Positions 48,705 through 63,548 of a DNA stretch of 64,000 bases are shown here, piece by piece. The stretch is taken from positions 1 to 64,000 of the forward strand of contig JAJEAH010000027.1 in the NCBI GenBank assembly GCA_022824225.1, read 5' to 3'. The stretch is from Chloroflexota bacterium (lineage in GTDB: Bacteria; Chloroflexota; UBA11872; VXOZ01). The position numbers and the translations under genes were made by a program. Each line of letters opens with the position of its first letter. Within the stretch, counting starts at the first letter, position 1. The notes beneath the pieces are model-generated. The model ran no database searches. It was not told the origin of the DNA and saw only the letters and a program-made list of their open reading frames with translations.

Positions 48705-50188
48705 TGGCGATTTTAAGCTGCAAGCCCGCGCGGCTAGCGGCGCGGTCCGGGGTTATGATCGGGATTGCCGGCGCTCACAAGGTACTGCCCGGTTTCGCCA
48801 AGCGGCGACCTTGGTGCGCTAATCTAAAGGCTTGGTTTGCCAAGGAGGAAGATAGGCCGATTTCCCGTGCGCCCGGACCGATGCCGCGCGCGGCGGCCGC
48901 TTACCATCCGGCGCCCCCGTCGCGTAGCTCATTCTCCTTCAGCCCTGTCGCGGCTCTGTTGCTCGCGGCGGCGCTCTGGCTGGCGCTTCCCGGGGCGGCC
49001 GCGGCAGACGGCGGCGTCATCAGCGGCGTCGTCACCAACGGCACAGCCAACGGCAGCGTACCCGCGGACATTGCCGTGACCCTCTACTTCCTGCGCGACG
49101 GCCAGATCGTCGAACAGCGCACCGACGTGACCGGCGCGGACGGCTCGTACCGCTTCAGCGAGTTGCCCACCGATCCGGACGTGCGCTTCGTTGCCGTAGC
49201 CGCGTTTGCCCAAGTGCCGTACAACACGGCGGAAATGCAGTTTAGCGATACGAGCGAAATCGAGGCCGCCCCGCTGGTGGTGTACGAATCCGGCCAGGAC
49301 GTGAGTGTCGTGCGCGTGGTCACCAACGTGCTGATTATCGCGCCGGGAGAAGAACGGAGCGGCATGCTCAGCGTGATCGAGGTGGTGCGCCTAGCGAATG
49401 ACAGCGACCGCACGTTCCTTGCCACCGGCGTCGGCGATAGCGGCGCGCCCATGGACCGGGTGTTGCGCTTCCAACTACCCGCCAACGCCCAAGACCTTAC
49501 GATGTTGAGCGGCTTGAACTCCCAAAACGTGGTGCAGATCGACCGCGGTTTTGGCGTCTTCATGCCGCTCTTTCCCGGCGAGCGTGAGGTGGCGTTCGGC
49601 TACCAACTGCCGTATTCCGGCAACACGCTGGCCATTGCAAAGCGTACGGTGTACCCTACCGAACAGTTTGCGATCCTGGCGCAGGAAGAGTATGGCCTGC
49701 GCTTTTCCGCCCCGCAGCTCGAAGTGGAACCCACGACTATCGGCGAGCGCCGCTACGTGGTAGGCACCACCGCTGACCTGGCGTCCCGCGCCGACGTGAC
49801 GGTGCGCATCGAGGGGCTGCCTGCGCCGGCGTTGCGGGTCCGGCTTGAGCGTATCCTCACCAGCGTCCGCGACGCCCGGACCACGCTCTATGCTGCGCTG
49901 GCAGTGGTATTCGTGCTGCCCGTTCTCTATGCGGCCTACCGCCTGCACGGCAGCCGGCGCCGGCGCGCCGCCGCGCCGCTGGCCGAGTCGGCAGCACCGC
50001 CTGCGCGGCAGGCGATGTCCGATTCGACTGCCGCGCGCGAAGCCCTGCTAACAGAAATTGCCCAATTGGACGACGACTACGCCGCGGGCAGTGTTGTCGC
50101 GGACGAGTACCGACGCCTGCGGGACAACTTGAAGGAACGACTGATGGCCCTGCACCGCGCGCCGGATGTAGAGATTCAGGATGGCTGA
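48704..50188 (+). CDS. exported carboxypeptidase-regulatory-like protein with CcmI-like tail
   Basis: ATG 48704 overlaps the previous stop (TGATG), giving 494 residues. That leaves about 75 residues before the signal helix (VAALLLAAALWLALPGAAAA), so ATG 48881 is a plausible alternative start. The external part begins with a carboxypeptidase-regulatory-like beta-sandwich (ISGVVTNGTANGSVPADIAVTLYFLRDGQIVEQRTDVTGADGSYRFSELPTD) and a long beta-rich region (PLVVYESGQDVSVVRVVTNVLII, ERSGMLSVIEVVRLAND). A TM at about 395-415 precedes a cytoplasmic helical hairpin (LLTEIAQLDDDYAAGSVVADEYRRLRDNLKERLMAL) that echoes the CcmI helix of the neighbouring gene. Position inside the ccm operon implies a role in cytochrome maturation; the mechanism is unknown. 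Confidence 0.75.
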   Translation: MAILSCKPARLAARSGVMIGIAGAHKVLPGFAKRRPWCANLKAWFAKEEDRPISRAPGPMPRAAAAYHPAPPSRSSFSFSPVAALLLAAALWLALPGAAAADGGVISGVVTNGTANGSVPADIAVTLYFLRDGQIVEQRTDVTGADGSYRFSELPTDPDVRFVAVAAFAQVPYNTAEMQFSDTSEIEAAPLVVYESGQDVSVVRVVTNVLIIAPGEERSGMLSVIEVVRLANDSDRTFLATGVGDSGAPMDRVLRFQLPANAQDLTMLSGLNSQNVVQIDRGFGVFMPLFPGEREVAFGYQLPYSGNTLAIAKRTVYPTEQFAILAQEEYGLRFSAPQLEVEPTTIGERRYVVGTTADLASRADVTVRIEGLPAPALRVRLERILTSVRDARTTLYAALAVVFVLPVLYAAYRLHGSRRRRAAAPLAESAAPPARQAMSDSTAAREALLTEIAQLDDDYAAGSVVADEYRRLRDNLKERLMALHRAPDVEIQDG

Positions 50189-50918
50189 CGCCCCGCATGA
50201 CCGGTCCGGGCTCGCCGTTGACGCCCAGGGGTTGAGCAAACGCTACGGCGCCCAGACCGCCCTGGACAGCGTGGACGTGGCGGTGCGTCCCCACGAGCGG
50301 CTGGCGATACTTGGGCCCAACGGCGCCGGAAAGTCCACCCTCATCGCGGTTCTGAGCACGGCTCTGCGCGGGAACGCGGGCACGCTGCGCATCATGGGTT
50401 GGGACACCGCCGCAGCGCCCAACGAGGCGCGCCGCCGCATCGGCGTGGTAGCCCACCGTACGTATCTCTATGAGGAACTTACCGCCCACGAGAACCTGCT
50501 CTTCTACGGTCGCCTCTACAGCGTGCCCAATCTTACCGAACACGTCGAGCGCCTCTTGAAGCTGGTGGACATGTTCCCCCGCCGCCACGATCGGGTCGGT
50601 GATTTGTCGCGCGGCATGCAACAGCGGGTCGCGCTGGCGCGGGCGTTGGTGCATGATCCGCCGGTGCTGCTCCTGGACGAACCGGACACCGGCCTGGATC
50701 AACTGCACCTGGACCTGTTGGCAGCGCTGGTGCAAGGCCGCGCCCTCCCTGCCCGCACCGTCATACTCACCACCCACAACCTGGACCGCGCCCTGGCGCT
50801 GTGCACCCGCGTTGCCATCCTGGCGCGGGGACGGCTGGTCTTTAGCTGCGACACGGCATCCCTCGACCCCACGAGATTGCGCGAAACCTACAGCCGCCTC
50901 GCGGGAGCGCCGCAATGA
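50181..50918 (+). CDS. ccmA: heme exporter ATPase CcmA
   Basis: A 245-residue ABC ATPase: Walker A GPNGAGKST (near 49-57), Q-loop GVVAHRTYLYEELTAHENLLFYGRLY, signature LSRGMQQRVALARAL (LSRGMQQ is typical of CcmA), Walker B PPVLLLDEPDTGLD and switch LTTHNLD. It powers the CcmAB(CD) complex that releases holo-CcmE. The ATG lies 8 bases inside the end of the previous gene, and its stop overlaps ccmB by 4 bases, consistent with one operon. Confidence 0.95.
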   Translation: MADAPHDRSGLAVDAQGLSKRYGAQTALDSVDVAVRPHERLAILGPNGAGKSTLIAVLSTALRGNAGTLRIMGWDTAAAPNEARRRIGVVAHRTYLYEELTAHENLLFYGRLYSVPNLTEHVERLLKLVDMFPRRHDRVGDLSRGMQQRVALARALVHDPPVLLLDEPDTGLDQLHLDLLAALVQGRALPARTVILTTHNLDRALALCTRVAILARGRLVFSCDTASLDPTRLRETYSRLAGAPQ

Positions 50919-51583
50919 TGCCGGCGGCGCGGCAAGTCCTTACGGTGGTGCGCAAAGACCTCCTGGTGGAGACTCGCGCCCGCGACCTGCTCAACGTAAT
51001 GCTGACGTTCGCCGTCCTCTCGCTCGTGATCTTCAACCTGGCCTTGGACCTGCGGGGGCCTGTGGTGCGGGAGGTGGGGCCCGGCCTGCTGTGGCTGACA
51101 ATCGCGTTCGCCGCCATTCTCGGCATGGGTCGCACCTTCGTCCGCGAGCATGAACGGGGCACGCTTACGGGCCTGCTAATCGCACCCATGGACCGCGGCG
51201 TGCTCTTCGTCGGCAAGCTCCTGGCAAACCTCATATTTCTGTTCGTCATGGAGGCCGTCACGCTGCCAATGTTCGCCGTGCTCTTCGGTCTGCCTGTGCT
51301 GCAGCCGGCGGTGTTGCTCATCACCGCCTTGGGCACACTGGGGTTCGCCACGCTCGGCACACTCTTTTCCGCCATGGCGGCGCAGAGCCGGGCCCGGGAA
51401 GCGCTGCTGCCGCTCCTGCTTCTGCCGACAACCGTGCCCGTGCTCATCGGCTCGGTGCAAGCTACAAGCCACGTGCTCGACGATACTGTGGGCGGTCCGC
51501 CTTGGATAGGCTTGCTGCTCGCCTTCAACGTCATCTTCTTGACGTTGGCATTCTTGCTCTTCGAGCACGTGGTCGATGGCTGA
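50915..51583 (+). CDS. ccmB: heme exporter permease CcmB
   Basis: A 222-residue protein with about six TM helices. It starts MMPAARQVLTVVRKDLLVETRARDLLNVMLTFAVLSLVIFNLAL, typical of CcmB, with FREHERGTLTGLLIAPMDRGVLFVGKLLANLIFLFVMEAV (RTFVREHERGTLTGLL is a family hallmark) and ALLPLLLLPTTVPVLIGSVQAT near the C-terminus. It partners CcmA. It overlaps ccmA by ATGA-type junction and precedes ccmC by 275 bases. Confidence 0.93.
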   Translation: MMPAARQVLTVVRKDLLVETRARDLLNVMLTFAVLSLVIFNLALDLRGPVVREVGPGLLWLTIAFAAILGMGRTFVREHERGTLTGLLIAPMDRGVLFVGKLLANLIFLFVMEAVTLPMFAVLFGLPVLQPAVLLITALGTLGFATLGTLFSAMAAQSRAREALLPLLLLPTTVPVLIGSVQATSHVLDDTVGGPPWIGLLLAFNVIFLTLAFLLFEHVVDG

Positions 51584-51643
51584 GGCGAATAGCCCATGGG
51601 GGACGTGAAAGGCAGCGCACTGGCGCTCGAGAATGGCATACTA

Positions 51644-51674
51644 GACTGCGGATTCAGGCAGTCTCAGCCGCAGT
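51644..51674 (+). promoter_or_regulatory. pair of mutually exclusive hairpins in ccmB-ccmC gap
   Basis: GACTGC (51644-51649) can pair with GCAGTC (51658-51663) to give a 6-base stem with an 8-base loop. The overlapping ACTGCGG (51645-51651) can instead pair with CCGCAGT (51668-51674). Only one can form at a time, an attenuator-like layout in the 275-base ccmB-ccmC gap. Both stems are short. Confidence 0.3.
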
Positions 51675-51858
51675 GTGAGTCCGCCAGCGGTCGGTGCACC
51701 GCACGCCAAGGCGCTCCGGGAAATCAAGCCTCCCGCGAGGCCCGGCGCACGGCGAGCTCATTGGCGTGAAGGGCGCGCGGTGGTGCACCATAGAGACGCA
51801 ACCTTGAGCCGGAGTTCCCGCTCAAAGAACTGACCAGCCATTTGGGGAAAGGACGACG

Positions 51859-52563
51859 ATGTTGCGGTCCAAACACGCAAGCAGCCCTCGGCGCTGGGTA
51901 GACGATCTCCTGGGCGTCGGCGCGCTCGTAGGCATGGTGGGGGCGCTGTGGCTCATCTTCGTCTACACACCGTTGGAGCTGGTGCAAGGCGCGGTGCAGA
52001 AGGTGTTCTACATACACCTCGCCTCGATCTGGAACGCGTACGCGAGCTTCCTGCTTGTCTTCGTGGCGAGTATCCTCTACTTGCGGCGGCCCAGCGCCGC
52101 CACGGACCGCTTTGCCCGGGCCTGGGCCGAAATCGGCGTCGTCTTTACCACCATCACCCTCATCAGCGGCGCGATCTGGGGCAAACCCATCTGGGGCACG
52201 TATTGGAGTTGGGACGCGCGGCTCACCACCACGCTCTTGCTGTGGCTCATCTATGTGGTCTACCTCATGCTGCCCAGCTTCATGGACGATCCTGAACGCG
52301 GCAGGCGCTACGCCGCCGTGGTCGGCGTCATCGGTTTCGTGGACGTGCCCATCGTGCACATGTCCGTGCGCTGGTGGCGCACGCTTCACCCCGATCCCAT
52401 CGTTGCCAACCTGGAGGGTCCGGATTTACCGGCGAGCATGTGGTATACGGTGCTCTATTGCATCGTCGTCTTCACGGTGCTCGCCGTCTACTTGGTGCGG
52501 CAACGCATGCAAATCGACGAACTGCGGGCGACGCTCGCTCGCCTGCGCTCAACCGCCGTTTGA
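51859..52563 (+). CDS. ccmC: heme exporter protein CcmC
   Basis: A 234-residue membrane protein with six TM helices. The WWD heme-binding signature is WGKPIWGTYWSWDARLTTTLLLWLIYVVYLML, flanked by His in YIHLASIWNAYASF (after QGAVQKVFYIHL) and VPIVHMSVRWWRTLHP. CcmC attaches heme to CcmE at its Cys or His. AAAGGACGACG lies directly before the ATG. The gap to ccmB may contain an internal promoter. The small ccmD follows after 21 bases. Confidence 0.95.
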   Translation: MLRSKHASSPRRWVDDLLGVGALVGMVGALWLIFVYTPLELVQGAVQKVFYIHLASIWNAYASFLLVFVASILYLRRPSAATDRFARAWAEIGVVFTTITLISGAIWGKPIWGTYWSWDARLTTTLLLWLIYVVYLMLPSFMDDPERGRRYAAVVGVIGFVDVPIVHMSVRWWRTLHPDPIVANLEGPDLPASMWYTVLYCIVVFTVLAVYLVRQRMQIDELRATLARLRSTAV

Positions 52564-52894: not shown

Positions 52895-52923
52895 TTGGCA
52901 CTCGCACAGGTGCATGGTATCCT
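52895..52923 (+). promoter_or_regulatory. candidate promoter of ATP-grasp/aminomutase operon
   Basis: TTGGCA (52895-52900) and TATCCT (52918-52923) are spaced by exactly 17 bases, with ATAAAT just after. Each hexamer matches 4 of 6 consensus bases. It is 48 bases upstream of the ATG at 52971 and just downstream of the direct repeat pair. Confidence 0.45.
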
Positions 52924-52970
52924 ATAAATAATGAAGTAATGGAGCCAGAGAAGGATTTAAGCGAGCGGTG

Positions 52971-54509
52971 ATGACGGAAGACGTGCCATGTCCAACCACG
53001 GGCGCCGGCGGCAAGGCCCCGGCAGCCGCAAGCAATGGCAGCCGGGCGGATAGCCCCAAGAGCGGCAAGGCCGCGGTCGGCGTCCTCACGGACACCGATG
53101 CCCGGGAACGCAGCCTCGCCCTCAACGAACGCGTTCCCGCCAGCGGCCTATTTGGCGAGGCGGACCGACCACTGGTAGAAGGGTCCCGCGCGTCCTGGCG
53201 CATTTCGCCGGAGCCGTTTCTCATCAGCCCCGCAAGCCTCGCGCGCCTCCAGCAGTTGGGCAACCACCTGCTCGCCTTCTACAGCGCCGCGAACCGCCTC
53301 TACCGCCGCAGCGTGCGCGGCACCATGCCCGCCTTCTTCCACGAATACTTAGACATTGGCAAGAGCGAGACCGTCATCGACTATGGGCGGATGAATCGCG
53401 TCCGGCGCGACCTGCCCGGTGTCATCCGGCCCGACCTTCTCCTGACGGCAGACGGGGTCAAGGCCGCCGAGTTGGACTCCGTTCCCGGCGGTATCGGCCT
53501 CACCGGCAGCATGCAGCAGCACTACGCCGGCCTCGGGTTCGCTATGGTGGGCGGCGCTAACGGTATGGTGGCAAGTTTCGCGGACATGATTCGCGACCGC
53601 GCCGCCCACGACGATCCCCGGCTTGCTATCGCGGTCTCGGATGAATCCACTGACTACCGACCGGAAATGCAGTGGGTATCCCAGCAGTTGTGCGAGCTCG
53701 GCATGGCGAGCGTGTGCGTGAAGCCGGGAGACGTCGAATTGCACGGCAACGAACTTACCGTAAACGGGCAGCCCATCGATACCCTCTACCGTTTCTTCGA
53801 GCTTTTCGACCTGAAGAACATCCCCAACTACGACGTGCTGCTCTACGCCCTGCGCAAGCAACTCGTCACCATGACGCCGCCGGTGAAGGCGTATCTGGAG
53901 GAAAAGCTGCTCTTTGCGCTCTTCCACCATCCGGCCCTGGCGGAATACTGGCGGCAGGAGCTGGGCGCCAAGACAGTCAACGCCCTGCGGCAGGTCATAC
54001 CGGAAACGTGGATACTCGACCCGCGCCCCTTGCCGCCGCAGGCAGTAGTGCCGGGTCTGGAAATCGCCAAGCGGCCGGTGACCGGCTGGGACCAACTCCT
54101 GGGTCTGGGGCAAGCGGATCGCCGGCTTGTCATCAAGCCGTCCGGCTACGCGGCGACGGCATGGGGCAGCCGCGGCGTCACCATCGGCCACGACCACCCC
54201 GAAGAGGCATGGAATGAAGCCGTGCAGGCCGCGCTGGACGCCTTCACCACCACGCCCCACGTGCTGCAGAAGTTCCACCACGGCAAGCGCTACGGCATCC
54301 GCTACTACGACTTTGCGCAAGACGCGGTCCGCAAGATGAACGGCCGGGCGCGCATGAGCCCGTACTACTTTGTGACGGGTGAAGAAGCAACTCTAGCCGG
54401 CATCCTCGTCACGATCGTGCCGGCTGATAAGAAACTCATTCACGGCATGATGGATGCCGTGATGACGCCTGCCGGCGTCAGTTCAGACGGCGTAAACTTG
54501 GATATCTAG
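52971..54509 (+). CDS. putative ATP-grasp ligase-like protein, partner of lysine 2,3-aminomutase
   Basis: ATG 52971 is preferred over GTG 52968; AAGGA lies 15 bases upstream. The 512-residue protein has a disordered first 60 residues, then a conserved-looking body: VIRPDLLLTADGVKAAELDSVPGGIGLTG (acidic strand with Glu/Asp and Gly loop), FADMIRDRAAHDDPRLAIAVSDESTDYRPEMQWV, DTLYRFFELFDLKNIPNY, and RRLVIKPSGYAATAWGSRGVTIGHDHPEEAWNEAV, whose IKPSGYAA-x-GSRGV looks like the ATP-grasp Lys and glycine loop. It probably belongs to the circularly permuted ATP-grasp group, but I cannot name a subfamily. It is 36 bases upstream of the aminomutase gene. The reaction is unknown. Confidence 0.6.
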   Translation: MTEDVPCPTTGAGGKAPAAASNGSRADSPKSGKAAVGVLTDTDARERSLALNERVPASGLFGEADRPLVEGSRASWRISPEPFLISPASLARLQQLGNHLLAFYSAANRLYRRSVRGTMPAFFHEYLDIGKSETVIDYGRMNRVRRDLPGVIRPDLLLTADGVKAAELDSVPGGIGLTGSMQQHYAGLGFAMVGGANGMVASFADMIRDRAAHDDPRLAIAVSDESTDYRPEMQWVSQQLCELGMASVCVKPGDVELHGNELTVNGQPIDTLYRFFELFDLKNIPNYDVLLYALRKQLVTMTPPVKAYLEEKLLFALFHHPALAEYWRQELGAKTVNALRQVIPETWILDPRPLPPQAVVPGLEIAKRPVTGWDQLLGLGQADRRLVIKPSGYAATAWGSRGVTIGHDHPEEAWNEAVQAALDAFTTTPHVLQKFHHGKRYGIRYYDFAQDAVRKMNGRARMSPYYFVTGEEATLAGILVTIVPADKKLIHGMMDAVMTPAGVSSDGVNLDI

Positions 54510-54545
54510 GTCGCCGCGCGACAGGAAGAGGGTGGAGAAACCACA

Positions 54546-55724
54546 ATGGCTATAGCACAATCCCAAGCAAAGCGACAGAGAGACGAGTGGCAGGAACTCC
54601 TCGCAGCCGGCATCAACCGGCCGGAGAAGCTCATCGCCGAGTTGGGCGAACGCCTCGGCTTGGATGACGAGACCGCCGCGAGCCTGCACCAGAATTTTCC
54701 CGTCCGCATCAATCCCTACTACCTCGGTCTCATCGAAGAGGTAAACGACCCCATCTGGCGGCAGGCCATTCCCGATGCCATGGAGCTCGACCACAGCGAC
54801 ACCATGACGACCATGGACCCGTTGGCCGAGGACATGGACGCGCCGGTGCCGTATCTCACGCACCGCTACCCGGACCGGGTGCTTATGGTGGTGCAGTTGC
54901 AGTGCGCCATGTATTGCCGGTTTTGCACCCGCCGCCGCGAGGTGGGCAGCCGCAACGCCGTGACCAAGGACGATTGGGACAGGCAGATCGAGTACATCGC
55001 CACCCATCCCGAGGTGCGCGACGTCATCATCTCCGGCGGCGACCCGTTCATGCTGCATGACGAGCAAATCGACTACATCCTCAAGAACCTGCGGGCCATA
55101 CCGCACATGGAGATCATTCGCCTGGATTCCCGCATGCCGGTCACGCTCCCCCACCGGGTGACGGAAAAGCTCTGCGGCATTATTCAGCAATACCATCCCG
55201 TCTATTTGAATACGCACTTCAACCACCCCCGCGAGATTACGCCGGAGTCCAGCCGGGCGTGTGAACTCATGAACGACCACGGCATTCCGGTCGGCAACCA
55301 GAGCGTATTGCTGCGGGGCGTGAATGACGATACCGAAATCATGAAGGAACTGGTGCAGAAGCTCCTCATGATTCGGGTCAAGCCCTACTATCTCTACCAA
55401 GCCGACCTGGTCACCGGCACGAGCCACTTCCGCACTGCCGTGGAGAAGGGCCTGGAGATCATCAAGGCCATCCAGGGCCACACCAGCGGCATGGCCGTGC
55501 CGCACTACGTGATCGATGCGCCCCAGGGCGGCGGCAAGATTCCGGTTTCGCCCGACTTCATCCAAGAAATTACCGACGATGAGATCGTGCTGCGGAACTA
55601 CGAAGGCAAAGTCTACCGCTACCCCATCGATGCCGAGGTGCCCAACGCGCGGGAGTCCGAGCTTGCCCAAGTGAAGAGCAATGGCGATGGCAACGGCGCC
55701 GCCCCGGCAACCGACAACCGCTAG
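54546..55724 (+). CDS. kamA: lysine 2,3-aminomutase
   Basis: A 392-residue radical SAM/PLP enzyme. The cluster motif CAMYCRFCTRR (Cys 120, 124, 127) binds [4Fe-4S] and SAM; ISGGDPFML and the PLP Lys in DAPQGGGKIPV (Lys 331) follow. The residues that set lysine specificity in the clostridial enzyme, an Asp in the YLYQADL segment (Asp 287) and one in YVIDAP (Asp 324), are both present, unlike in glutamate aminomutases as I recall them. It converts L-lysine to beta-lysine. Length fits KamA rather than the shorter EpmB. GGTGGAG precedes the ATG. No ablB-type beta-lysine acetyltransferase is adjacent. Confidence 0.9.
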   Translation: MAIAQSQAKRQRDEWQELLAAGINRPEKLIAELGERLGLDDETAASLHQNFPVRINPYYLGLIEEVNDPIWRQAIPDAMELDHSDTMTTMDPLAEDMDAPVPYLTHRYPDRVLMVVQLQCAMYCRFCTRRREVGSRNAVTKDDWDRQIEYIATHPEVRDVIISGGDPFMLHDEQIDYILKNLRAIPHMEIIRLDSRMPVTLPHRVTEKLCGIIQQYHPVYLNTHFNHPREITPESSRACELMNDHGIPVGNQSVLLRGVNDDTEIMKELVQKLLMIRVKPYYLYQADLVTGTSHFRTAVEKGLEIIKAIQGHTSGMAVPHYVIDAPQGGGKIPVSPDFIQEITDDEIVLRNYEGKVYRYPIDAEVPNARESELAQVKSNGDGNGAAPATDNR

Positions 55725-57821: not shown

Positions 57822-57952
57822 ACACATGCGTGGCGCCGCATCTGAAGGCTTTCCATTCCCTGATCCATCAGACTGCCCGCCCGCACACGTGTAGTTTCGC
57901 GGATAGCGGTAGAATGAGGAGGTGGAATGACGCCTTCAGAAGGATCCAAGTC

Positions 57953-59698
57953 GTGAACATCGACGTTGCCACCCTCACCGCGCTCCGCCGCGAATGTGAA
58001 GACACCATCGTCGGCGGGCGGATACAGCGGGTGCTCCATCCGGACCACCTGGCGGTGGCCCTGGAAATCTACGCCCGGGGCGAGACGTGGTGGCTCATCA
58101 TCAACGCCGCGCCGCAAGCGCCCCACCTCTATCTGACCCATGCGCGCCCGGCGCGGGCCGACGACAACGTGACCCCCTTGCTGCTCCTGCTGCGCAAGTT
58201 CGTGCGCAACGGACGCCTAATCGCGGTCAGTCAACCGCCGTGGGAGCGCGTGCTGCAATTCACCGTGCAGGCGCGGGTAGACGCGGACATCCTCGAAACC
58301 ACGCTCACGGCTGAAATCATGGGCCGCACGAGCAACCTGGTGCTGTCGGATGCGGACGGGATCATCCTGGACTGCCTGAAGCGCGTGGACTCCTCCATCA
58401 ACCGCTACCGGCAAGTGCTCCCGAAACTGCCGTACCTTCCGCCGCCGCCCCTCAGCCGTCCCGACCCCTTCGCGCTACAGGCTGCGGCGCTTGAGGCCGC
58501 CGGCGGGGAAGCCCCACGGCAGCCTGCCTGGCGGGTCCTCATGGGACAGACCAGCGGCTGCGGACCCCTGCTCGCGCGAGAAGCAGTCCATCGGGCCGCG
58601 GGCGACGCCCAAACTCCGGCAAGCGACGCGCCGTGGCCGGAGGTGCTGGCGGCGGCGCGGGAGCTATTCACGCAGGCAGCCGAAGGTGAACCGGCGCCGA
58701 CCTTGGCCCGGGACGAGGCTGGCGCGCTGGCCGCCTATGCCCCCTATGCGCTGACTATGTACCCGCAGCATGAAACGGCGGCGTCCATGAGCGCCGCCGT
58801 GGAGCAGTTCTACCGTGAGCAGGGCCGCGCGCCCCAACGGCCGTCGGCAAACCGCGATCTGGGCCAGAAGCCGCTGCTGGCCGCGCTGGAAGAGCGCATG
58901 GACCACCTGCGCCAGCGGCGTCGCGCTCTGGAACGCCAGAAGACTGAATCGCTCGATGCCGACGACTGGCGGCGCAAAGGCGACCTGGTGCTGGCCTACG
59001 GCTACGGCCTGCCGCCGGGCAGTAAGACCATCGAGATCGACGGCGAAACCATCAAGTTCAATCCCGACGAGTCGGTTGCCGCCAATGCTGACGCCTACTT
59101 TGCCACGTACAAGCGCAAGAAACGCGCTCAGGAAGAGGTGCCGGGGCTCTTGCGCAAGGTCGAGAACGAGTACGCCTACTGCGAGCAAGCGGAGGCCCTG
59201 CTGGATGCGGCGGAAACCCCCACCGACGTGCGGGCGGTGCGCGCCGACTTGCGCGAACAGGGCATAGCCGGCGGCGGCAAGCCGGTCAAGCGCCAGAGCC
59301 GCGCGGGCAAACGCGGCCGGCGCGTGGAACAGGGGGCGCAGCCGGTCTCGTTCTGGCTGGACGGCGTGCAGGTGCTGGTGGGCCGCAGCGGCGGGCAGAA
59401 CGACGCCGCCCTGCGCCTGGCCGACGCCGACGACGTGTGGCTGCACGCCCGCAACGTGCCCGGCGCGCATACCGTGCTGCGCTCCGGCGGCCGCGAGGTG
59501 CCCGACGAGATCATCAGCCAAGCGGCGCAAGTCGCCGCCTACTACAGCAAGCTGCGGGAGTCTACCAGCGCCGAGGTGGACGTGACCAAACGCCGCTACG
59601 TCCGCCGCATCCCCGGCGCACCCCCCGGACTGGTCACCTACCGCAACGAATACACCATCCGCGTGAAGCCCGCACCGTTGCCGCAACCGGAACGGTGA
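57953..59698 (+). CDS. rqcH: RqcH/NFACT ribosome quality-control protein
   Basis: A 581-residue protein. GTG 57953 with AAGGA 7 bases upstream starts NIDVATLTALRRECEDTIVGGRIQRVLHPDHLAVALEI, the typical NFACT-N opening; the ORF track's longer start is unsupported. NFACT-N continues with LLLLLRKFVRNGRL and EIMGRTSNLVLSDADGIILDCLKRVD. A coiled-coil section (LEERMDHLRQRRRALERQKTESL, FATYKRKKRAQEEVPGLLRKVENEYAYCEQAEALL) leads to NFACT-R (VLVGRSGGQNDAALRLADADDVWLHARNVPGAHTVLRSGGREVPDEI). It binds stalled 50S subunits and directs alanine tailing. The first part is intact, so it is probably functional. Confidence 0.93.
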   Translation: MNIDVATLTALRRECEDTIVGGRIQRVLHPDHLAVALEIYARGETWWLIINAAPQAPHLYLTHARPARADDNVTPLLLLLRKFVRNGRLIAVSQPPWERVLQFTVQARVDADILETTLTAEIMGRTSNLVLSDADGIILDCLKRVDSSINRYRQVLPKLPYLPPPPLSRPDPFALQAAALEAAGGEAPRQPAWRVLMGQTSGCGPLLAREAVHRAAGDAQTPASDAPWPEVLAAARELFTQAAEGEPAPTLARDEAGALAAYAPYALTMYPQHETAASMSAAVEQFYREQGRAPQRPSANRDLGQKPLLAALEERMDHLRQRRRALERQKTESLDADDWRRKGDLVLAYGYGLPPGSKTIEIDGETIKFNPDESVAANADAYFATYKRKKRAQEEVPGLLRKVENEYAYCEQAEALLDAAETPTDVRAVRADLREQGIAGGGKPVKRQSRAGKRGRRVEQGAQPVSFWLDGVQVLVGRSGGQNDAALRLADADDVWLHARNVPGAHTVLRSGGREVPDEIISQAAQVAAYYSKLRESTSAEVDVTKRRYVRRIPGAPPGLVTYRNEYTIRVKPAPLPQPER

Positions 59699-59892
59699 CA
59701 CCGAGACCGGCCTAGTGAAGCCCTGTCTGTTCGCCTGAGGCCTCGATGGGACATATAGCGAGGGCAAACGCAGCAAACCGATCGCCCAACTAGAGAAACT
59801 CCCTGTTCGCCCTGCGCGCAGTCGTTCGTTCACTCTACACGCATTCGCCCGTTCGCCCCACACGCACTCGCCCGTTCGCCCTGCGCGCACTC

Positions 59893-59930
59893 GCCCGTTC
59901 GCCCTGAGCATAGTCGATGGGTGAACGGGC
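59893..59930 (+). repeat. long palindrome, copy 1
   Basis: GCCCGTTCGCCC-tgagcatagtcgat-GGGTGAACGGGC. Arms pair apart from one G.T mismatch. The loop carries the TGAGCATAGTCGA core seen in the other copies. Confidence 0.8.
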
Positions 59931-59982
59931 GGGCGACATAACCAGATCGACACCCCCACAACATGGTCACCCAAGCGCAGCA

Positions 59983-60028
59983 GCCCGTCCGTTCGCCCTG
60001 AGCATAGTCGAAGGGTGAACGGACGGGC
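59983..60028 (+). repeat. long palindrome, copy 2
   Basis: GCCCGTCCGTTCGCCC and GGGTGAACGGACGGGC pair over 46 bases around a TGAGCATAGTCGAA core. It lies at the edge of the mosaic duplicated segment. Confidence 0.8.
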
Positions 60029-60298
60029 GGAGTAGCACAGCACCAAGACTCGACCCCCATCGACTGCAAGAGACTCGGAGGAATGAACACGCGCCGGTCC
60101 TGCCCGCCCAACCCTTCATGCTTCGACTATGCTCAGCACGAACGGTTGGGCTACATTCCGTTCCCCCTGAGCTTAGTCGAAGTGCTCAGCACTCATGGTT
60201 GGGCTTCATGTCCGTGAGGGAAACGTCGGAGAGTGAAAGGGCGGACAATACTCACCAGCGGGCGGACACCCCCACAACGTGGTCACCCAAGCGCAGCA

Positions 60299-60344
60299 GC
60301 CCGTCCGTTCGGCCTGAGCACAGTCGAAGGGTGAACGGACGGGC
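60299..60344 (+). repeat. long palindrome, copy 3
   Basis: The same 46-base plan with core TGAGCACAGTCGAA and one internal change (TTCGGCC for TTCGCCC). The outer arms GCCCGTCC and GGACGGGC are intact. Confidence 0.8.
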
Positions 60345-60393
60345 GACGTAAGCAGATGGACGCGCCCACAACTTGAGTCGGCCGAGCACAGCA

Positions 60394-60439
60394 GCCCGTC
60401 CGTTCGCCCTGAGCACAGTCGAAGGGTAAATGGGCGGGC
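60394..60439 (+). repeat. long palindrome, copy 4
   Basis: GCCCGTCCGTTCGCCC with a decayed right arm (GGGTAAATGGGCGGGC). The core is TGAGCACAGTCGAA. Confidence 0.75.
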
Positions 60440-60656
60440 GGAGTAGCACAGCACCAAGACTCGTCCCCCATCGACTGCAAGAGTCTCGGAGGAATGAACA
60501 CGCGCCCGTCCTGCCCGCCCAACCGTCCATGCTTCGACTGTGCTCAGCACGAACGGTTGGGCTACATGTCCGTGGGGGAAACGCCGAAAGGTGAACGGGC
60601 GGACAATACTCACTAGCGGTCGGACGCGCCCACAACATGGTCGGCCGAGTTCAGAA

Positions 60657-60702
60657 GCCCGCCCGTTCGCCCTGAGCACAGTCGAAGGGTGAACGGACGG
60701 GC
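60657..60702 (+). repeat. long palindrome, copy 5
   Basis: GCCCGCCCGTTCGCCC...GGGTGAACGGACGGGC around TGAGCACAGTCGAA. It is followed by a segment identical to that after copy 1 (ACATAACCAGATCGACACCC). Confidence 0.8.
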
Positions 60703-60751
60703 GACATAACCAGATCGACACCCCCACAACATGGTCACCCAAGCACCGCAA

Positions 60752-60795
60752 CCCGCCCGTTCGCCCTGAGCACAGTCGAAGGGTGAACGGGCGGG
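60752..60795 (+). repeat. long palindrome, copy 6
   Basis: CCCGCCCGTTCGCCC...GGGTGAACGGGCGGG, the best-matched arms of the set, around TGAGCACAGTCGAA. Shorter, partly inverted relatives are at about 60112-60150, 60155-60200, 60528-60565 and 60851-60877. Confidence 0.8.
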
Positions 60796-61024
60796 CGACG
60801 CAAGCAGATGGACACTCCCACAACCTGGTCACCCAAGCACAGTAGCCCGGCCATTCGCCCTGAGCCGGTCGATGGGCGTGCTCAAGCAGTGGTGCACTTA
60901 CCCGCGCTCAGTCTAGACCGCCGCCATGAGCTTAGCCAAGGTTCGGGCACGGCCCACCTTAGGCCAATTGCCATCCTCCCACTCCGTAGACCATTGGGCA
61001 GCACTAGCATCACCTCAGAAGTCG

Positions 61025-63301
61025 CTACCGCGGCGTCCAATTCAGATGCCTATCCAAGAACGGAAACGTCCCCGTGCCTTCGATCATGTGGCCGCCGTCG
61101 AAGTAGTAGATTTCGGCGCGGTCGGGAATCTTGAGGTCGGCGTAGCGGCGTTGGACTCTCGCGTATTCGTGGGCGCACCATTCGTCAGACGCCACGGCGT
61201 CGCGGTGGCCGCGCTCGACCATGAAGGGGCGCGGCGCCATCAAGTAGGCCATCTCGGCGTAGTTGAAGGTCCGGCCCAGGTCGAACTCAGGTATCTCCCA
61301 TTCATGATTGAACAGATAACCTGAGAAGTAGTCGGTGCTGGCGCACTTGCGCAGCCACTCGTTGAAATCGCCGGAGCAAATCGAGAGCGCATATTGGGTT
61401 AACACCGTCGGGATGCGCATGGCCGCCTTGCCGCCGTAGGAGAGTCCGTAGAAGCCGATGCGGTCCGCGTCGACGAACGGCAGCGCGGCAAGCCAGCGGA
61501 GCAGTTGCTCGTGCTGCGCGATGGCGAACGAGAAGAGGGTCCAGCCCAGCGGATTCGCCTTGCGCTGGAGGGTGCGAAACTCGTGAAAGCCGATATAGGG
61601 GTTTTGCGGCGCGTAGGTGATGTAGCCCCGTTCGGCCAGCCGCGCGGCAAAGGCGCTATACGCGTCCTTGTCTTCCGTGATGACGTCCTCAGGCCGGCCC
61701 TCCAGCCCGTGCTGGCACACCACCACCGGCCGCCGCTCGCCGGGCGCAATGTCCTTCGGGATGAGCAAGATGCCGTGGGTGAAAACGTCCGCCAGCACGT
61801 CCAACGTAACCTCGTGTCCCCACCAGGCATCGCTGTCGCCGTAGGGGCGGCTGCGCAGGTTGAACGGCAGGCTGGGGTCCGGGCAACGCCCAATGAGGTC
61901 CTCCCAAAAGCGCTGGCGGTAGGCGGCTGTCGATTCTTCCCACTCTTCGAGTGATGACGTGTCAGCGTCGTTCCAGAATGCTTCCCGCACCCGCCACGCT
62001 TGGTCGATGCTGCCCTGCACGTGGGCTACGAGTTGCTTGAACTGCTGTTTCGTTCGCTCAGCGGGGTCAAAATCACTTCTGGCGTCACGCGGTTGCGTGT
62101 TTGCAGCTTCATCGCGGGCTTTCACCCCCAGACCTGCCAACAATGCCGCCAAGGCTGCATCGGAGCCGGGGCCGTCGGCGGCGGCAGGCGGCTCGACGAG
62201 GACCAGCCGGTCCGCAGCGCCCGCCGCGGCAAAGCGCGCGCGGGCGCGGTCCACTTCCGCGGCGACCTCGTCTAGCGGCGCGGGCTCGATCTTGCCGGGA
62301 GCCGTCGTTTGGCCGCGGGCGTGCTCCTGGTGCCGGATCGGCGGCGCGCCGGGCACTGCGGGCGCGGGTGTCGCCTCCACGACCAGACTACGGGGCGCGA
62401 CCATGGCGGCGAGTTCGGCGTCACTGTAGCCCCGCAGCAACCGCCAGACGTTGCGGTAGAGCGGTTCCTGCCACAGATCGCGCCGGTTGCGGAAGTAGCC
62501 GCTCACCCCCACTCCGCTAATGCGCTCGTCCAGCGCGCCGCTGTACAACGCCAGCAGGCCGCCCTCGCCGTAGCCAAAGACCGCCACCGGCGCGTCTTCG
62601 GGCGCTTGCTGGGGGGATGTGAAGAAGTCGACCAACGCCAGGAGCTTTTGCACCTCGTAGCCGATGACGTGACGCCCCATCTCGAAGGCCATGCGGTAGA
62701 TGAATTCGCGGTGGGGCTGGTCGGTCATGCGAATCGCCGGGTTGCCCGACAGGGAGTGGTCCCGGTCGATGAGTGCGGGAACCACAACCTGGCAGCCGCG
62801 CTCAACCAAGCGCCGGGCGAACTGCTGCGCCGGCGCTAAGCCGGGGGCGAGGCCGGCGAGCATCTCCGGCGTCCAATCGGCGTCCGGCACGGCGATGACG
62901 TGGGCGCTGGGCGGACGCTTGGGCCGTAAGAGCAAGCCTTCGCCATCGACACCATCCAGTACGGGCCACCGGACCGCGTGCACGTCATAGGTGGGCGTGG
63001 CCGCAACCCGGAACGGGTCCGTTGTGGAACACACGAACTCCAGTGACGGCGCCGGTTTTCGATCATCGGCCATGCCAATGATGTGCGCGAATTCCTGTCG
63101 CCGCTCTTGTACGGCCGTTTCCGAAAGCTCGTTGGCGGCCGGTTCCGACTGGAGCCTGGCGGCGGCCGTTTGGTCGGCGGCGCGCAGCTCGCGGTCCAGG
63201 TAGCGGTGGATGCCCGCAATCATCTGGGCGGCGATGTCGCCCGCCTCGTCAAGCGGCGCGGCGTCAGGCAGATGGGAGGCGTCGAAGTGCGATTGGCCCA
63301 T
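61025..63301 (-). CDS. tandem alpha/beta-hydrolase (acetyl-xylan-esterase/dienelactone-hydrolase-like) with inactive first domain
   Basis: The ATG at 63301 (MGQSHFDASHLPDAAPLDEAGD) with AAGGA upstream gives 758 residues; the track's longer start is unsupported. After a helical N-terminus, domain 1 (about 90-380) has a hydrolase-like core but its nucleophile elbow reads VFGYGEGGLLAL, where the Ser of GxSxG is replaced by Gly 245. Domain 2 (about 480-758) is complete: oxyanion VVVCQHGLEGRPEDV, elbow IGFYGLSYGGKAAM (Ser 621), Asp region MVERGHRDAVASDEW and His in FDGGHMIEG. The second half resembles acetyl-xylan esterases and dienelactone hydrolases. No signal peptide is present, so it is cytoplasmic. 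Confidence 0.8.
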   Translation of the reverse strand: MGQSHFDASHLPDAAPLDEAGDIAAQMIAGIHRYLDRELRAADQTAAARLQSEPAANELSETAVQERRQEFAHIIGMADDRKPAPSLEFVCSTTDPFRVAATPTYDVHAVRWPVLDGVDGEGLLLRPKRPPSAHVIAVPDADWTPEMLAGLAPGLAPAQQFARRLVERGCQVVVPALIDRDHSLSGNPAIRMTDQPHREFIYRMAFEMGRHVIGYEVQKLLALVDFFTSPQQAPEDAPVAVFGYGEGGLLALYSGALDERISGVGVSGYFRNRRDLWQEPLYRNVWRLLRGYSDAELAAMVAPRSLVVEATPAPAVPGAPPIRHQEHARGQTTAPGKIEPAPLDEVAAEVDRARARFAAAGAADRLVLVEPPAAADGPGSDAALAALLAGLGVKARDEAANTQPRDARSDFDPAERTKQQFKQLVAHVQGSIDQAWRVREAFWNDADTSSLEEWEESTAAYRQRFWEDLIGRCPDPSLPFNLRSRPYGDSDAWWGHEVTLDVLADVFTHGILLIPKDIAPGERRPVVVCQHGLEGRPEDVITEDKDAYSAFAARLAERGYITYAPQNPYIGFHEFRTLQRKANPLGWTLFSFAIAQHEQLLRWLAALPFVDADRIGFYGLSYGGKAAMRIPTVLTQYALSICSGDFNEWLRKCASTDYFSGYLFNHEWEIPEFDLGRTFNYAEMAYLMAPRPFMVERGHRDAVASDEWCAHEYARVQRRYADLKIPDRAEIYYFDGGHMIEGTGTFPFLDRHLNWTPR

Positions 63302-63548
63302 GGTATTGAGTGTCCTTCTCCTGCAATTGCATGCACATGGGAACAGTACCGCGTGAGCGCAACCGGCGCAAGACGCAAGAACGGCGCTTGCGGTGAGCCC
63401 ACAGCTACAAAATAGCCGTGGGCACATCCGGTAAGCGCCGCCTACTCTAATCCCGCGTGCGAAGTGCGGATGCTACGCTACGTCCTCAACAGACCGCGCC
63501 GACAAGCTGCGTCGCCAGCGCCGCGCGGTCTCCCAAGGGACTTAGCGG

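Follow-up and report, generated by a model that had tools for sequence, protein, structure and literature searches.

The known fates of beta-lysine are few and comprise acetylation to an osmolyte, modification of EF-P, fermentation and some antibiotics. A close parallel to the gene pair described here is EpmA/EpmB, where a truncated aminomutase works with a dedicated enzyme that uses ATP to ligate beta-lysine; unlike the ligase of the pair, EpmA is LysRS-like and is not an ATP-grasp enzyme. ATP-grasp enzymes of the glutathione-synthetase fold include the eukaryotic-type glutathione (GSS) and homoglutathione (hGS) synthetases, the glutathionylspermidine synthetase GspS and the peptide-spermidine ligases YgiC/YjfC of Escherichia coli, and the amine that they use is glycine, beta-alanine or spermidine. 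The same fold class holds Cp1B (9cjn), the ATP-grasp ligase of E-64, which resembles the ligase reported below in forming a small-molecule amide bond and in lacking a sequence match to other ligases, and differs from it in being fungal and in acting on epoxysuccinate and an amino acid (PMC12568646).

The window analyzed here, a stretch of 64,000 nucleotides from contig JAJEAH010000027.1 of a Chloroflexota bacterium, encodes a predicted ligase of this fold directly upstream of a KamA-family aminomutase. The features of the locus are as follows.

52895..52923, + strand: candidate sigma-70-like promoter TTGGCA-17-TATCCT, 5' of the pair (consensus match 9/12, weak)
52968..54509, + strand: predicted glutathione-synthetase-fold (circularly permuted) ATP-grasp ligase, assigned from the open reading frame, AlphaFold with Foldseek, and conserved catalytic residues
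54546..55724, + strand: KamA-family radical SAM/PLP aminomutase of the lysine type, 392 aa, assigned from profile matches and active-site residues

The original prediction described two genes 36 bases apart behind a shared candidate promoter. The open reading frame coordinates bear out the 36-base gap on the same (+) strand, where the ligase may begin at GTG 52968 (513 aa) or at ATG 52971 (512 aa). The promoter fared less well: the consensus match is present, with a TG preceding the second hexamer, but the region contains one such site against 0.7 expected from shuffles, a frequency no better than chance, so that the shared promoter amounts to a consensus match and to weak evidence.

Inspection of sequence databases placed the ligase in no described family. 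The protein has zero Pfam, NCBIfam or PDB sequence matches, no family model scored above threshold for it or for 62 homologues, and PDB searches from the single sequence or from two profiles returned nothing real. The curated models GSP_synth (Pfam) and CP_ATPgrasp gave sub-threshold matches in some members of the family (best E 0.0016). Structure comparison proved more informative. An AlphaFold model built with 63 sequences (pLDDT 89.3, pTM 0.89) was compared with the PDB by Foldseek, and the top 49 neighbours were all glutathione-synthetase-type or closely related ligases, headed by human GSS (E 8.8e-18), homoglutathione synthetase (2e-14) and Cp1B (2e-13), with YjfC (2e-11), YgiC (6e-11), GspS (8e-10), plant glutathione synthetase and trypanothione synthetase also among them. 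An earlier second AlphaFold model agrees on the glutathione-synthetase fold by Foldseek. Fold prediction of the 512-residue protein had been set in advance as a test that could refute the original prediction of an ATP-grasp-like enzyme; it returned an ATP-grasp fold, of the circularly permuted glutathione-synthetase type.

Residues R154, D156, E168, D170, K313 and K390 of the ligase are invariant in 101 homologues. By order and local spacing they correspond to GspS R316, D318, E330, N332 (Asp in the ligase), K498 and K533, which we take to be Mg/ATP catalytic residues, the correspondence being set by motif and not by residue-level superposition. This pattern of R/D/E/(N or D) and two ATP-site lysines is common in identity and spacing to the ligase and GspS/YgiC/YjfC, while hhalign of the ligase profile against the single GspS and YgiC sequences gave no informative alignment. 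On the basis of fold and invariant catalytic residues, the protein is very probably active as a carboxylate-amine ligase, as predicted in silico.

Comparison with characterized relatives indicates a common architecture and separate identities. The overall fold is common to human (8fbz) and soybean (3kal) enzymes of the GSS/hGS type (TM 0.61-0.68), and similar acyl-phosphate amide ligation chemistry is expected; in contrast, the ligase is only 13-15% identical to them, with no detectable sequence relation, and it is paired with KamA, the GCS2 partner being missing in 24 of 27 genomes. The fold is likewise that of GspS and YgiC/YjfC, whose polyamine-like amine acceptor offers an attractive parallel, but the ligase lacks an amidase domain, falls under the GSP_synth cut-off and has KamA as its genomic partner. 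A role as GspS proper was rejected, since GSP_synth is absent from the genome of the window. A more distant circularly permuted ATP-grasp family of ~465 aa, also unannotated, occurs in other Chloroflexota classes (four loci) and aligns with the window ligase in hhalign at 99% probability. Invariant acidic residues, E278 among them, could hold the positive charge of beta-lysine; the MAFFT alignment with these distant relatives is unreliable in the N-terminal half, so family-specific acids of this kind give only a hint.

The aminomutase passes the cut-off of the subfamily model TIGR00238 and is closest to TIGR03820 among profiles and to 2a5h in the PDB. It scores 469 bits against TIGR03820, the lysine 2,3-aminomutase equivalog (cut-off 525.4), 414 bits against TIGR04368 (cut-off 650) and 259 bits against the EpmB model TIGR03821 (cut-off 369). 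Alignment to KamA/AblA lysine 2,3-aminomutase (2a5h) reveals that the CxxxCxxC radical SAM cysteines are conserved, that K331 is equivalent to the PLP lysine K337, and that D287/D324 are equivalent to D293/D330 of the Clostridium subterminale enzyme, the Asp pair that holds the lysine epsilon-amine. The lysine-type Asp pair of the original prediction is therefore present, and it is kept in 43/43 ligase-linked KamAs aligned. The product of the window KamA should be beta-lysine, as judged from its family and active-site residues. By way of comparison, a second KamA found in two Limnochordia genomes carries Lys/Asn where the Asp pair would be, the pattern of glutamate 2,3-aminomutase. In contrast to KamA/AblA, the window KamA lacks the C-terminal Zn/multimerisation domain of classical lysine 2,3-aminomutases (LAMs), its tail having no Cys motif and the LAM_C match covering 57/127 positions; it also falls below the AblA equivalog cut-off and resides in a genome without AblB. 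The C-terminal domain is missing from most ligase-linked relatives as well, and the same loss has been reported for EpmB/YjeK (PMC2821294).

The distribution of the two genes was surveyed across bacterial genomes, a co-occurrence survey that, like the fold, had been named beforehand as a test capable of refuting the original prediction; the pair was found to be conserved together across phyla. The ligase occurs in Chloroflexota, Nitrospirota, Poribacteria, Latescibacterota, Gemmatimonadota, Bacillota and Eremiobacterota. KamA adjoins it in Nitrospirota, Bacillota and Chloroflexota, that is to say in at least three phyla, and in a fourth, Poribacteria, both genes are found in the same genomes. 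Among 198 Nitrospirota genomes, 98 hold both genes, 88 lack both, 1 has the ligase alone and 11 have KamA alone, such that KamA is present in 98/99 genomes with the ligase versus 11/99 without it (Fisher p = 3e-42). KamA lies directly downstream on the same strand in 95 of the 99 ligase-bearing Nitrospirota genomes, a pairing far beyond chance. For the class to which the window belongs, a phylum sample of 301 genomes places the ligase in 37/37 sampled members, and KamA scored above the search threshold in 36 of these 37, the exception being a fragmented genome. KamA is directly downstream of the ligase in the loci examined from families f1, f3, f4 and f5 of this class, while in the genomes checked from family f2 it is unlinked, 11-28 kb from the ligase. 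In a mixed set, KamA is held by 40/42 ligase genomes.

Phylogenetic analysis groups the ligase-linked KamAs with the unlinked KamAs of Poribacteria and family f2 in one clade that stands apart from the classical LAMs (SH-aLRT 98). A single clade for all linked KamAs was not rejected (p-AU 0.20), and it can be put no more strongly because the linked KamAs of Bacillota group elsewhere. The mirror-tree correlation is 0.69, a value reached in 0/2000 permutations and confounded by the species tree. The ligase of Latescibacterota, Gemmatimonadota and Eremiobacterota occurs with only a distant KamA (~40%), and one ligase-bearing genome of Eremiobacterota yielded no KamA. At ten loci of Latescibacterota and Gemmatimonadota, the place downstream of the ligase is taken not by KamA but by a gene for a PP-loop ATPase that resembles the sulfur transferase LarE. 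This LarE-like gene was rejected as a partner of the ligase, as it is a lineage-specific neighbour found without the KamA clade.

Taken together, the pair probably constitutes a putative two-enzyme route to a beta-lysine amide. By radical SAM/PLP chemistry, KamA would relocate the amino group at C2 of L-lysine to C3, yielding beta-lysine (3,6-diaminohexanoate). The ligase would then use ATP to form an acyl phosphate on a carboxylate, which would be joined to an amine, for which the two amino groups of beta-lysine are the most probable candidates. Being a beta-amino acid as well as a diamine, beta-lysine would suit the amine place of this fold, where it would stand in for the beta-alanine of homoglutathione synthetase or the spermidine of GspS and YgiC. 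The scheme would thereby yield a soluble conjugate of beta-lysine. The reverse polarity may apply, with the carboxylate of beta-lysine activated instead. Because the acceptor is one that we infer, the conjugate not yet described of the original prediction would be conjectural to the same degree.

Known routes were weighed against this scheme. The original prediction noted the lack of ablB and EpmA, and this extends beyond the window: across the whole genome, the ablB acetyltransferase was not found and nothing scored above the genX cut-off for EpmA, the best sub-cut-off genX match (a 516-aa frame) being probably lysyl-tRNA synthetase, judged by length. The ligase might nonetheless replace EpmA and attach the beta-lysine that KamA produces to the lysine at the tip of EF-P or to another protein, and the truncation that KamA shares with EpmB/YjeK (PMC2821294) is in keeping with such a role, as is the tip lysine of EF-P in the sampled Nitrospirota, Poribacteria and Bacillota genomes. 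However, the tip is Arg in the genome of the window and in 9 further members of its class (10/10 ligase-bearing genomes examined), so that lysylation of EF-P is excluded as the common role and EF-P was rejected as the common acceptor for this class; KamA also scores far below the EpmB cut-off, and neither gene was seen beside efp in the loci looked at, albeit unsystematically. Replacement of EpmA is accordingly improbable, and a protein acceptor other than EF-P is possible. That the ligase produces a thiol tripeptide akin to glutathione, such as gamma-Glu-Cys linked to beta-lysine, is very improbable. The eukaryotic glutathione and homoglutathione synthetases are its nearest folds, and many Nitrospirota loci encode, between ligase and KamA, a glutaredoxin/GST_N-class CPxC protein of 80-110 aa with which such a thiol could be used. 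Against this, a GCS2-type gamma-glutamylcysteine ligase is absent from 24/27 ligase-bearing genomes, that of the window included, on which ground a thiol made by the GCS2 route was rejected; the region of the human GSS Ser/Ser motif, which presumably binds gamma-Glu-Cys, appears Pro/Gly-rich in the ligase; and the glutaredoxin-like gene was not found outside Nitrospirota in the loci examined.

An osmolyte function, in which a beta-lysine dipeptide or amide accumulates and the ligase does the job of AblB, would be a role for the two-enzyme route, with the same chemistry. The acetyl-beta-lysine osmolyte of AblA/AblB was rejected owing to the absence of ablB, an absence that leaves room for a substitute, and several ligase holders are marine sponge symbionts according to record titles. 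In contrast, other record titles place the ligase in freshwater, groundwater and digester lineages, which together with its presence in all 37 sampled class members suggests a general role that is not linked to salt, and we regard the osmolyte function as rather unlikely. Absence of AblB, EpmA and usually GCS2, along with the Arg tip of EF-P, leaves acetyl-beta-lysine, EF-P lysylation and a GCS2-dependent glutathione analogue as poor fits. That the conserved pair fits none of the tested fates of beta-lysine points to a metabolite or a modification that is new and has a general role. A simple operon effect, with KamA serving lysine use and the ligase acting on an unrelated peptide, is unlikely. 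Two observations lean toward it and away from the two-enzyme route: the genes are non-adjacent in Poribacteria and family f2, and the ligases of Latescibacterota, Gemmatimonadota and Eremiobacterota are accompanied by ~40% KamAs only. The two-enzyme route also has against it that the window KamA is under the curated lysine 2,3-aminomutase cut-off and that co-inheritance in a small operon could mean separate tasks. Separate pathways are, however, difficult to reconcile with the near-perfect co-occurrence of the ligase with one KamA clade even where the genes are unlinked, or with the finding that this gene association alone outlasts the genus in the lineage of the window.

With the two-enzyme route to a beta-lysine amide as the preferred reading, we give an even chance to the broader proposal that the pair represents a branch of lysine metabolism that is widespread and so far unreported, in which a dedicated lysine 2,3-aminomutase, truncated at its C terminus, and ligases of a new glutathione-synthetase-fold family make a beta-lysine conjugate belonging to the core metabolism of Nitrospira and relatives, the whole Chloroflexota class of the window, Poribacteria and some Bacillota. 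A search of the open-access literature found no report of such an aminomutase-ligase pair. The enzymes are of known kinds; what appears new is their combination, along with the ligase family and the product. The pair is found in about half of sampled Nitrospirota genomes (nitrifiers included, per record titles) and in every sampled member of the Chloroflexota class, and beta-lysine ligation, if shown, would assign a function to a large protein family outside Pfam and NCBIfam.

Inspection of the surrounding genes reveals how far the association reaches. Intergenic distances between ligase and KamA in a larger Nitrospirota sample fall into short and long groups, consistent with presence or absence of the glutaredoxin-like gene; the protein that it encodes may maintain the aminomutase, or what the aminomutase makes, in a reduced state. 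In the lineage of the window, the pair is the sole gene association kept beyond the genus, and its flanking genes are kept within the genus only. The downstream GFO/IDH/MocA, PfkB and NFACT genes were rejected as partners, given that their synteny is restricted to the genus and that they are not near the pair in three other families. Directly upstream, at 50181-52563, lie cytochrome c maturation genes conserved in the genus, namely an ABC ATPase and a membrane protein (both named from sequence only) and a CcmC-like cytochrome c assembly protein. Downstream, an NFACT (RqcH-like) ribosome-rescue protein is encoded at 57830-59698. Between this gene and that at 61025-63427, intergenic repeats span 59798-60891, composed of 23-nt and 94/95-nt tandem units, and the 26-nt motif TCCGTTCGCCCTGAGCATAGTCGAAG occurs there in nine copies, some of which are inside longer repeats of 138-194 nt.
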